Below, in pieces: positions 2,402 through 17,283 of a DNA stretch of 48,111 nt; positions within the stretch are counted from its first letter, which is position 1, and each line of letters opens with the position of its first letter. Both the position numbers and the translations under genes were made by a program. Location: assembly GCA_009784515.1 (NCBI GenBank), contig WRBN01000002.1, forward strand, positions 1 through 48,111, given 5' to 3'. This stretch comes from Spirochaetaceae bacterium (GTDB lineage: Bacteria; Spirochaetota; Spirochaetia; WRBN01). The notes under the pieces are model-generated. The model was given only the letters and a program-made list of their open reading frames with translations, was not told the DNA's origin and did not search any database.

Positions 2402-2430
2402 TTGACAATAAACCAAAACAATATTATGAT
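2402..2430 (+). promoter_or_regulatory. near-consensus promoter of the micropeptide mRNA
   Basis: TTGACA (2402-2407), a 17-nt spacer and TATGAT (2425-2430) predict a start near 2437. The leader (about 2437-2510) includes AAGCC-GCAA-GGCTT (2441-2454), a hairpin with a GNRA loop, and two copies of CTTATAGGGA, the second merging into the Shine-Dalgarno. Confidence 0.8.
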
Positions 2431-2510
2431 AACATTTAAGAAGCCGCAAGGCTTTGGTAAACAGGGCGCGCTAACTTATAGGGAAAAATTCTTATAGGGA
2501 GGTGTAAAAA

Positions 2511-2594
2511 ATGTGGGTAAGTGAAAAAACACTACTACGAGCATTACTATTTGCACTGTTTATGCTCGTAATAGCACTACAAAGGTTACATTAA
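2511..2594 (+). CDS. 27-residue single-helix membrane peptide, candidate type I toxin
   Basis: ATG at 2511 follows the Shine-Dalgarno GGGAGGTG by 6 nt; the frame ends at TAA 2592-2594. The peptide starts MWVSEKTLLR, continues with a hydrophobic helix of about 14 residues (ALLFALFMLVIAL) and ends QRLH: charged ends around one membrane span. It has its own promoter and terminator and nothing else is coded on the transcript. An antisense unit runs through its 3' half. Small hydrophobic peptides such as TisB, Fst, TxpA or BsrG share this size and shape; no sequence match is claimed. Alternatives: a non-toxic small membrane regulator, or a regulatory RNA in which the reading frame is incidental. 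The good Shine-Dalgarno argues that it is translated. Confidence 0.65.
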   Translation: MWVSEKTLLRALLFALFMLVIALQRLH

Positions 2595-2645
2595 AAACGT
2601 AACTTTACATTTCTGAGGCTGGTTTTGCTAGCCTCAGTTTTTTAT
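2524..2645 (-). ncRNA. predicted antisense RNA (candidate antitoxin), about 120 nt
   Basis: The promoter 2680-2652 predicts a start near 2645, directly beyond the sense terminator. The RNA would carry the complement of the sense terminator hairpin at its 5' end, run antisense to the 3' UTR and second half of the micropeptide frame, and stop at a hairpin formed by 2574-2562 and 2544-2532 (13 bp including one G-U pair, 17-nt loop) followed by TG and six T (2529-2524). On the sense strand the same stem has a C-A mismatch, so it is better formed in the antisense RNA. It would be wholly complementary to the mRNA 3' half, as in txpA/ratA or bsrG/SR4. This is inference from signals only. Confidence 0.55.
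2613..2643 (+). terminator. intrinsic terminator of the micropeptide mRNA
   Basis: CTGAGGCT (2613-2620) pairs with AGCCTCAG (2630-2637) across a 9-nt loop, followed directly by TTTTTT (2638-2643). Confidence 0.85.
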
Positions 2646-2651
2646 AGTTAG

Positions 2652-2680
2652 ATAATATCCTATTTTTTAACTAAAGTCAA
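2652..2680 (-). promoter_or_regulatory. promoter of the antisense RNA
   Basis: On the minus strand TTGACT (2680-2675), a 17-nt spacer and TATTAT (2657-2652) face the micropeptide gene. The rpmF operon has exactly the same hexamers and spacing (17827-17799). Confidence 0.65.
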
Positions 2681-15896: not shown

Positions 15897-16565
15897 TTAA
15901 TCATTTTTCGCAATCATAATTGCTAATTCGCCCATTATCTTTTTTTGCCCGCTTGCGTTAAAAATTTCGGCCGCCGTGCCGCGCCAAAATTCGGCGTAAA
16001 GTTTAGTCATTTCACGGCCTACTACCAGCTGACGTTGCGGACAAAGCCGGTTTAACTCCTCCAGTAACTTAATTATACGATGCGGCGATTCGTAAAGCAC
16101 CACATTAAAAGGTAAAGCCAAATATTCGGCCAGTTTAGTCAGGCGTTTAGCCCCTTTAGGCGGTAAAAAACCGGCAAAAAGGGTTTCGCCCATAAAACCA
16201 CTGACACTAACCAAACAACTAAAGGCCGAAGCTCCCGGCAGCGGCTCTACCTCGAAGCCGGCCTTAATTACGCTGTCTACCAGCCGTGCTCCCGGGTCGC
16301 TTAAAGCCGGTGTGCCGGCATCACTACAATAAGCAACATTTTTATCTTGGCTTAATAATTTAATTAACCCGGCAGCGCTTTGCCGTTCATTATGGGCGTG
16401 GCAGCTAAGCAGCGGTTTGCTAATTTTATAGTGGTTTAGAAGTTTTTGCGTATGGCGGCTGTCTTCACAGGCGATATAATCTACCTCCTGCAAGATAGTT
16501 AAAGCGCGTAAAGTAATATCGCTTAAATTGCCGATAGGGGTGGCTACTATATAAAGTTTAGCCAT
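15897..16565 (-). CDS. rsmI: 16S rRNA 2'-O-ribose C1402 methyltransferase RsmI
   Basis: 222 residues of the tetrapyrrole-methylase fold. Signature segments: LYIVATPIGNLSDITLRAL (N-terminus), YIACEDSRHTQKLLNHY, LLSCHAHNE, VAYCSDAGTPALSDPGARLV, PLPGASAFSCLVSVSGF, FAGFLPPKGAKR and LYESPHRIIKLLEEL. RsmI uses SAM to methylate the 2'-O of C1402 in the ribosomal decoding centre. It is somewhat shorter than E. coli RsmI (286 residues), missing the C-terminal extension. It overlaps the rnc end by 8 nt and so is translationally coupled to RNase III. Confidence 0.93.
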   Translation of the reverse strand: MAKLYIVATPIGNLSDITLRALTILQEVDYIACEDSRHTQKLLNHYKISKPLLSCHAHNERQSAAGLIKLLSQDKNVAYCSDAGTPALSDPGARLVDSVIKAGFEVEPLPGASAFSCLVSVSGFMGETLFAGFLPPKGAKRLTKLAEYLALPFNVVLYESPHRIIKLLEELNRLCPQRQLVVGREMTKLYAEFWRGTAAEIFNASGQKKIMGELAIMIAKND

Positions 16566-17283
16566 AGGCGCCTACCAACTGTTCGTAAGCTTTAGCGGCC
16601 GCCTGTTGCTCGGCCATTTTTTTATTACCGCCGCTGCCGGCAGCAATTACTTTATTATTAATTAAAAGTTCGATAGTATAAATTTTTTTGTGCTCGGGGC
16701 CGCTGCTATCAACTAAACGATAAAGCGGTAAATCTTTATATTTTTTTTGGCAAAACTCTTGCAGTAAAGATTTATAATTTCTTTCGTAAGTATTGGTTTT
16801 TACTGCCGTAAATTGGGCGGCCAGCTGCGTTAAAATAAAACTTTCGGCCTCGCCAAAACCTTTATCTAAATAGATGGCGGCAATGATAGCCTCCATTGCA
16901 TCGGCTAAAATAGAAGGACGGCTGTCGCCGCCGGTAATTTTTTCACCTCTGCCCAATAGTAAATAATCGGCTAGTTTTAAATTAACGGCGCTTTGCAGCA
17001 AAGATTCTTCACTAACTAAAAAAGATTTATATTTGGCTAATTCACCTTCACTTGCTTGCGGAAAGTTAAGATAAAGGGTATAACTTACCACCATATTTAA
17101 AATACTATCACCTAAAAATTCTAGCCGCTCATTACTTTGCGGCAGGGTATTTTCGTTGGCATAGCTGCTATGGGTTAAGGCTAAAGCCAATAGTTGCTGG
17201 TTATTAAAAGAAATATTTAAAGCCTCTTCTAATTTAAATAAAAGCCGCCTAGTAGTTACACCGGCGGCTTTAGGTTTACTCAT
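16558..17283 (-). CDS. rnc: ribonuclease III
   Basis: 241 residues. Catalytic signature NERLEFLGDSIL (51-62) and DAMEAIIAAIYLDKG (128-142, D128 and E131 as metal ligands); GRGEKITGG lies between. The C-terminal dsRNA-binding domain (about 165-238) keeps the pattern YKSLLQEFCQKK...GPEHKKIYTIEL...AAGSGGNKKMAEQQAAAKAYEQL. It cuts double-stranded RNA in rRNA maturation and antisense/mRNA duplexes, and so would also process a sense/antisense duplex from the 2.4-2.7 kb locus. Order rpmF-acpP-rnc is the one known from Treponema. It lies 14 nt after acpP and overlaps rsmI. Confidence 0.96.
   Translation of the reverse strand: MSKPKAAGVTTRRLLFKLEEALNISFNNQQLLALALTHSSYANENTLPQSNERLEFLGDSILNMVVSYTLYLNFPQASEGELAKYKSFLVSEESLLQSAVNLKLADYLLLGRGEKITGGDSRPSILADAMEAIIAAIYLDKGFGEAESFILTQLAAQFTAVKTNTYERNYKSLLQEFCQKKYKDLPLYRLVDSSGPEHKKIYTIELLINNKVIAAGSGGNKKMAEQQAAAKAYEQLVGAYG

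Follow-up and report, generated by a model that had tools for sequence, protein, structure and literature searches.

The cassette and its predicted transcripts

The cassette occupies positions 2402 to 2680 of the window (the whole 48,111-nucleotide stretch of DNA analysed here), and is flanked by a beta-barrel outer-membrane protein gene that ends at 2228 and a TPR-like gene that starts at 2813. Its plus strand carries a promoter, a leader of ~74 nt, a 27-codon frame and an intrinsic terminator, just past which a minus-strand promoter faces the sense promoter. All of the elements originally claimed for this locus (promoters, hairpin, Shine-Dalgarno, frame, and terminators) were found in place, and the RNase III gene that was also claimed is indeed encoded within the window, although unlinked to the cassette. 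The features are listed below, where A and B designate subfamilies of related cassettes.

2402..2430, plus strand: sense promoter TTGACA-17-TATGAT, 11/12 consensus bases, transcription start at ~2437
2441..2454, plus strand: 5' stem-loop AAGCC-GCAA-GGCTT of the sense RNA with a GCAA loop, read directly from the sequence
2453..2464, plus strand: leader motif TTTGGTAAACAG, which could base-pair with the loop of the hairpin inside the frame; a candidate only
2468..2505, plus strand: leader hairpin whose 3' strand includes part of the Shine-Dalgarno, from the minimum-energy fold
2498..2502, plus strand: Shine-Dalgarno GGAGG, present in all 10 A copies and in B copies
2511..2594, plus strand: 27-codon frame MWVSEKTLLRALLFALFMLVIALQRLH followed by a stop, predicted single-helix membrane peptide and candidate toxin
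2524..2578, minus strand: predicted antisense terminator inside the toxin frame, arms 2528-2544 and 2562-2578, T6 (A6 at 2524-2529)
2582..2606, plus strand: stem-loop around the stop codon, in both RNAs; present in A-copy folds on both strands with changed letters
2613..2643, plus strand: sense-RNA intrinsic terminator, stem of 11 bp (2613-2637), T6 2638-2643
2524..2645, minus strand: predicted antisense RNA (putative antitoxin) of ~122 nt with three stem-loops, able to pair with the 3' UTR and the 3' portion of the frame
2652..2680, minus strand: antisense promoter TTGACT-17-TATTAT, 10/12 consensus bases, start at ~2645
16558..17283, minus strand: RNase III gene (Pfam Ribonucleas_3_3 E 4e-39, dsrm E 4e-19)

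The predicted sense mRNA is ~205 nt long, and the two convergent genes have a predicted 3' overlap of ~120 nt. The sense RNA folds at -67.9 kcal/mol (z -5.6), better than all 200 dinucleotide shuffles, and the antisense RNA at -37.5 kcal/mol (z -4.8), which none of its 200 shuffles equalled. The peptide has a best 15-residue hydropathy of 2.66 and a net charge of +2. No credible family match was found for the peptides in Pfam, PHROGs, NCBIfam or the PDB (A-subfamily peptides gave a single below-threshold and unrelated match against the first three), and no Rfam match was found across the whole window. Homology to known type I toxin families was likewise not found, in searches to which 27 residues give little power and without a direct comparison to TxpA or BsrG, so that toxicity cannot be derived from homology. 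Moreover, a single-site promoter scan of the first 8 kb performed no better than on shuffled sequence (11 promoters found vs. 13.6 expected), and thus the window alone could not decide whether the promoters were genuine, while its relatives could.

Related cassettes and their conserved parts

Searching the genome that contains the window (G000; 129 contigs, 1.83 Mb, 95% complete) at the DNA level yielded nine further cassettes, and the pattern ACGAGC-N18-22-GCTCGT has exactly ten sites in this genome, all of them in these subfamily A cassettes (the reversed control pattern has none). A profile built from the ten peptides recovered weaker matches with the same architecture in other letters, and an enlarged profile recovered the rest, for a total of 16 loci. 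Fourteen of these lie in the window's genome (ten A, including the window's own, and four diverged B), and the other two (subfamily C) in G001, which belongs to a sister genus and is the only other genome from the same order in the searched set. Two tandem pairs occur, one of A cassettes (C13) and one of B cassettes (C20).

Beyond the sixteen, searching the class (395 genomes) with the profile gave only chance-level matches (outside the order with E-values of at least 0.003, judged collectively). Weak peptide matches in G201 and G034 were inspected and rejected because the cassette architecture is absent, and an RNA-model match in G331 was rejected as chance. No instance of the strict cassette DNA pattern was found in 84,980 species genomes or IMG/VR (which may omit the window's own genome), nor of the peptides in IMG/VR, nor of the cassette in a DNA search of plasmid and phage records.

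All 16 loci retain an intact frame of 25-27 codons for a one-helix peptide (start codon ATG in 15 and GTG in one G001 copy), and all peptides have one shared hydrophobic stretch and a net charge between 0 and +4. Between A subtypes the frame changes length by exactly two codons, and the ratio pN/pS among A copies is ~0.43 outside the repeat arms described below, indicating purifying selection on the peptide. Residues L19 and V20 are invariant in all sixteen aligned sequences, from A through C. A Shine-Dalgarno accompanies the frame in all ten A copies, and is nearly always present overall.

The minus-strand promoter is found in 15 of the 16 loci with 9-12 of 12 consensus bases (two are a perfect TTGACA-17-TATAAT), starting, counted from the stop codon, after 49-58 nt in A and C and after 79-91 nt in B, and it is this conservation across homologous loci that makes the promoters credible. 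When loci are aligned on the hexamers, identity reaches 0.91-0.94 for the -35 and 0.78-0.79 for the -10, but only a near-random 0.35-0.40 in the spacer and 0.31-0.34 in the upstream flank; between members of different subfamilies the values are 0.94, 0.78, 0.35 and 0.31, respectively. As far as sequence can tell, only those parts of the antisense promoter that RNA polymerase would read are conserved. Antisense RNAs of 115-122 nt are predicted for the other A copies with this promoter (for C19a by alignment). The original prediction was to be refuted if relatives retained the RNA without the frame or without the minus-strand promoter; we sought such cases among the 15 further loci, and the frame was kept in 15 and the promoter, at the equivalent place, in 14, with copy C41 as the single exception.

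Equivalents of the sense promoter exist in most paralogues and remain recognisable, but are looser than the antisense promoter (identity among A copies of 0.75 and 0.67). Four A copies have weak sense promoters, the form TTGTTA-17-TAnnnT occurring in several A copies. We infer that a stronger promoter for the antitoxin than for the toxin is the pattern expected of an antisense-silenced toxin. The sense terminator is kept with compensatory changes in nine of the ten A copies, and is made of other sequences in B and C.

In the leader, the 5' hairpin recurs with varying letters in the folds of most A paralogues, and immediately before the start codon a hairpin pairs part of the Shine-Dalgarno in the mRNA folds of A and B, although only some copies show a mean opening of the Shine-Dalgarno below that of shuffled leaders. 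Every A copy has a leader motif, TGGTAAACAG, with complementarity to the frame loop (p-values of 0.003-0.06 per copy against shuffled loops), and in three of the four copies of the TGGCGAACAG subtype the loop is altered and its match lies three bases away. This pairing signal weakens, and becomes mostly non-significant, when the whole leader is considered, and vanishes in subfamily C; we thus regard leader-loop pairing as a lead rather than a result. In the window, the loop of the antisense RNA resembles the leader motif (2453-2464 and 2543-2563).

Subfamilies A, B and C all have the inverted repeat within the frame, with different letters. All ten A copies encode R10 by CGA, L19 by CTC and V20 by GTA (A11 is GCA or GCC), and among pairs of codons for the same residue 164 are the same and 16 different within the arms, compared to 203 and 167 elsewhere in the frame. 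Such agreement beyond the rest of the frame implies a constraint on these bases besides the peptide. From A to B, the arms change in a compensatory way within the same register (CTACTACGAGCA/TGCTCGTAGTAG vs. GCTACTAGCA/TGCTAGTAGC): R10 CGA becomes a leucine codon, CTA, while L19 CTC becomes CTA, and the arms stay complementary.

In the window, the stem has 17 pairs on the minus strand when G-U is counted (-19.1 kcal/mol), as opposed to 9 pairs in the sense RNA (-14.4 kcal/mol). The claim that it is perfect only as antisense RNA stands for the window copy, as well as for C41, but does not extend to the family, as several paralogues pair perfectly in either RNA and the two G001 copies pair well only as sense RNA. 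Similarly, the antisense unit can be described as tuned to the minus strand in the window, but not in the family as a whole, since in subfamily C the sense stem is kept and the antisense terminator sits upstream of, rather than inside, the frame. At the sequence level, an antisense terminator is seen in A and C. The A copies keep a minus-strand T-tract after the repeat, which would make it a terminator, while B copies have only a short U-tract there, leaving the end of their antisense RNA unsure. The C arms, shifted in register by one codon, pair well only as sense RNA, and upstream of the frame the minus strand carries a separate hairpin and T-tract (GCCCCCTCAAATG...CATTCAAGGGGGCAATTTTT), so that the predicted antisense RNA is ~185 nt long and covers the whole frame and the ribosome site. 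It can be inferred that the function common to the three subfamilies is an mRNA hairpin whose loop the antisense RNA meets first.

Genomic surroundings and a possible orphan copy

Most copies in the window's genome lie among ordinary chromosomal genes. In the sister genus, one copy adjoins a phage terminase large subunit gene (PHROG E 8e-25), and the other is located on a 28-kb contig, which may be a plasmid or phage, between a type II pair (a ParE/RelE-like toxin with its DUF6290 partner) and a tyrosine integrase (G001 C3, L107:800-1335 and 1819-2769). A HicB-like antitoxin gene with a helix-turn-helix was also observed near the tandem A cassettes (C13, L050:1-378). Terminase, type II toxin-antitoxin, integrase and HicB-like neighbours are the company usual for addiction modules, and clustering of type I with type II modules is possible. 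The tandem B cassettes (C20:12600-13900, L120) adjoin a tRNA-Met gene, and each has a perfect TTGACA-17-TATAAT antisense promoter and a short U-tract.

The copy C41 (L039:380-640) keeps the promoter, leader, Shine-Dalgarno, frame and repeat, and is without the terminator and the antisense promoter: its 3' part is replaced by a convergent fusA (EF-G) gene, which ends on the other strand ~17 nt past the stop codon. The best predicted cross-partner for its mRNA is the C14 antisense RNA (-90 kcal/mol). By inference, C41 is either an orphan served in trans, or a copy for which fusA read-through provides an antisense RNA that ends at the in-frame repeat.

Proposed function and place among type I systems

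Homology of the cassettes, selection on the frame, conservation of promoter and repeat, and association with mobile elements in the sister genus are all observed. We interpret the cassette, with a probability of roughly 80%, as a chromosomal type I toxin-antitoxin locus, one of 14 in its genome, for which the transcripts, toxicity, neutralisation, RNase III dependence and kissing-loop start remain inferred. The plus strand would yield a structured mRNA of ~205 nt encoding a cationic membrane peptide (27 residues, one helix), whose role as toxin is inferred, and the facing promoter just past the mRNA terminator an antisense RNA of ~120 nt, complementary to most of the frame as well as the 3' untranslated region, and predicted to terminate at a hairpin encoded by the toxin's own codons. 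Pairing would probably begin at the loop that the in-frame hairpin exposes, the resulting duplex would be cut by RNase III as the likely processor, and translation from the partly masked ribosome site would stay off. If the antisense RNA were lost (with a mobile element) or silenced, the freed mRNA would be translated and the peptide would presumably damage the membrane. Several observations count against a type I system: the short U-tract of B, the four weak sense promoters among A copies, the absence of an antisense promoter from C41, and the lack of any match between the peptide and known type I toxin families.

It is tempting, if doubtful, to take this further: the codons of the toxin would serve as both terminator and recognition loop of the antitoxin, so that peptide and antidote share bases and co-evolve, with the loop setting specificity among the 14 cassettes, the leader competing for the loop, and C41 silenced by the 3' end of the EF-G mRNA. 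We hold this only as a tentative extension.

Alternatively, the cassettes could encode a family of non-toxic small membrane proteins, for instance regulators of some membrane complex, whose expression a cis antisense RNA adjusts. Such a family would be compatible with the purifying selection seen on the peptide and with the location of several copies among ordinary genes (PTS EIIC, EF-G, outer-membrane barrel), and toxicity data are absent. Fourteen diverged copies, nearly all with their own antisense promoter and some in tandem pairs, are however more reminiscent of addiction modules, and a position next to a terminase gene, or between a type II toxin-antitoxin pair and an integrase, is atypical for housekeeping, which makes this alternative unlikely without disposing of it. 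The repeated unit also runs from the sense -35 to the antisense -35 between unrelated flanks, as it would in a MITE-like short mobile or repetitive element with TTGACA/TGTCAA as terminal inverted repeats and an incidental frame. Yet the ends are conserved only as promoter hexamers at a 17-nt spacing (spacer identity 0.35-0.40), the sense end reads TTGTTA or TTGAAT in several copies, and a passive repeat would not keep a frame under purifying selection (pN/pS ~0.4) and a Shine-Dalgarno; we thus rejected this highly improbable explanation. Least credible is an RNA regulator of other genes (sense or antisense) to which the frame is secondary: strong structure on both strands and base-level conservation of the repeat arms would suit it, but not a frame kept in 16 of 16 loci with a Shine-Dalgarno nearly always present, synonymous changes favoured relative to replacements outside the repeat, and residues L19 and V20 that never vary across the three subfamilies despite wide DNA divergence.

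Within the type I interpretation, the cassette can provisionally be classed, by analogy and without any claim of family membership, as a convergent 3'-overlapping module like bsrG/SR4 and txpA/RatA. The bsrG/SR4 genes of the SPbeta prophage of Bacillus subtilis are convergent with a ~120 nt 3' overlap, encode a small hydrophobic peptide, and combine a partly paired ribosome site with loop contact and RNase III cleavage (PMC4147584, PMC6562991). The spirochaete cassette resembles them in its predicted overlap of ~120 nt, its hydrophobic peptide and a ribosome site predicted to be partly paired, and differs in a peptide of 25-27 residues for which no homology was found, an antisense terminator made of toxin codons (in A), 14 copies in one genome, and a host from another phylum. 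Convergent 3' overlap, RNase III control and association with mobile elements are also known for txpA/RatA (B. subtilis skin element) and sprG/sprF (PMC4147584, PMC3531473), with which the cassette shares predicted converging transcripts, the 3' overlap and the mobile-element association. The txpA/RatA overlap is only ~75 nt for a TxpA of 59 residues (PMC4147584), whereas the overlap predicted for the spirochaete cassette covers most of the frame in A, and in C the entire frame together with the ribosome site.

The aapA/IsoA systems of Helicobacter and other Epsilonproteobacteria are multicopy and chromosomal, pairing a small toxic protein with a cis antisense RNA, and their mRNAs form hairpins that mask the Shine-Dalgarno and long-distance pairings (PMC6733600). 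The spirochaete family is likewise multicopy and chromosomal with a predicted cis-overlapping antisense RNA, but its antisense promoter lies beyond the toxin terminator and no peptide homology was found; its version of the long-distance pairing, which is only suggested, would join the leader to the frame loop. Ibs/Sib of Escherichia coli is a repeated cassette of ~140 nt in several copies, with an antisense RNA over the whole frame and the ribosome site (PMC4147584), as predicted here for subfamily C, but differs in peptide, promoter geometry and host, and from the A antisense RNAs, which stop inside the frame. Finally, Fst/par of pAD1 has a shared bidirectional terminator and an overlap that stops short of the coding region, in contrast to the two separate terminators of the window cassette and its predicted antisense RNA, which enters the frame.

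FlaA marks spirochaetes. A FlaA match is present in the window's genome (E 7e-53) and absent from 14 control genomes, so that the host is a spirochaete. We found no type I system of spirochaetes in the open-access literature searched, and a 2025 paper lists such systems only from Proteobacteria, Firmicutes and Tenericutes, along with its own cyanobacterial candidate (PMC12390103). The original statement that no such system had been described in treponemes agrees with this literature (PMC12390103), except that "treponeme" goes beyond the evidence, FlaA supporting only a spirochaete. We favour reading the cassettes as a new family of type I toxin-antitoxin systems, the first found in Spirochaetes as far as we searched, whose function is inferred. 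Whether the apparent restriction of type I systems to few phyla reflects biology or search bias is an open point (PMC12390103), and a family that has 14 copies in one 1.8-Mb spirochaete genome and escapes Pfam, NCBIfam, PHROGs and Rfam speaks for search bias. In addition, these parallel cassettes provide a natural set in which to study the co-evolution of antisense specificity, terminator placement and peptide sequence.

A further RNA-model match, in a genome from another spirochaete family (G307, L060:1455-1690), was not counted as a family member and is retained only as an analogue. This locus encodes an unrelated 33-residue peptide (MSKKKKKPSNLAYYLAVLATIDSVFSVLTFFFK) with a TTGACA promoter, Shine-Dalgarno and terminator, as well as a minus-strand TTGACA, an in-frame CCGAG...CTCGG repeat with a T run, and then a second small hydrophobic frame, and is possibly an independent type I system.
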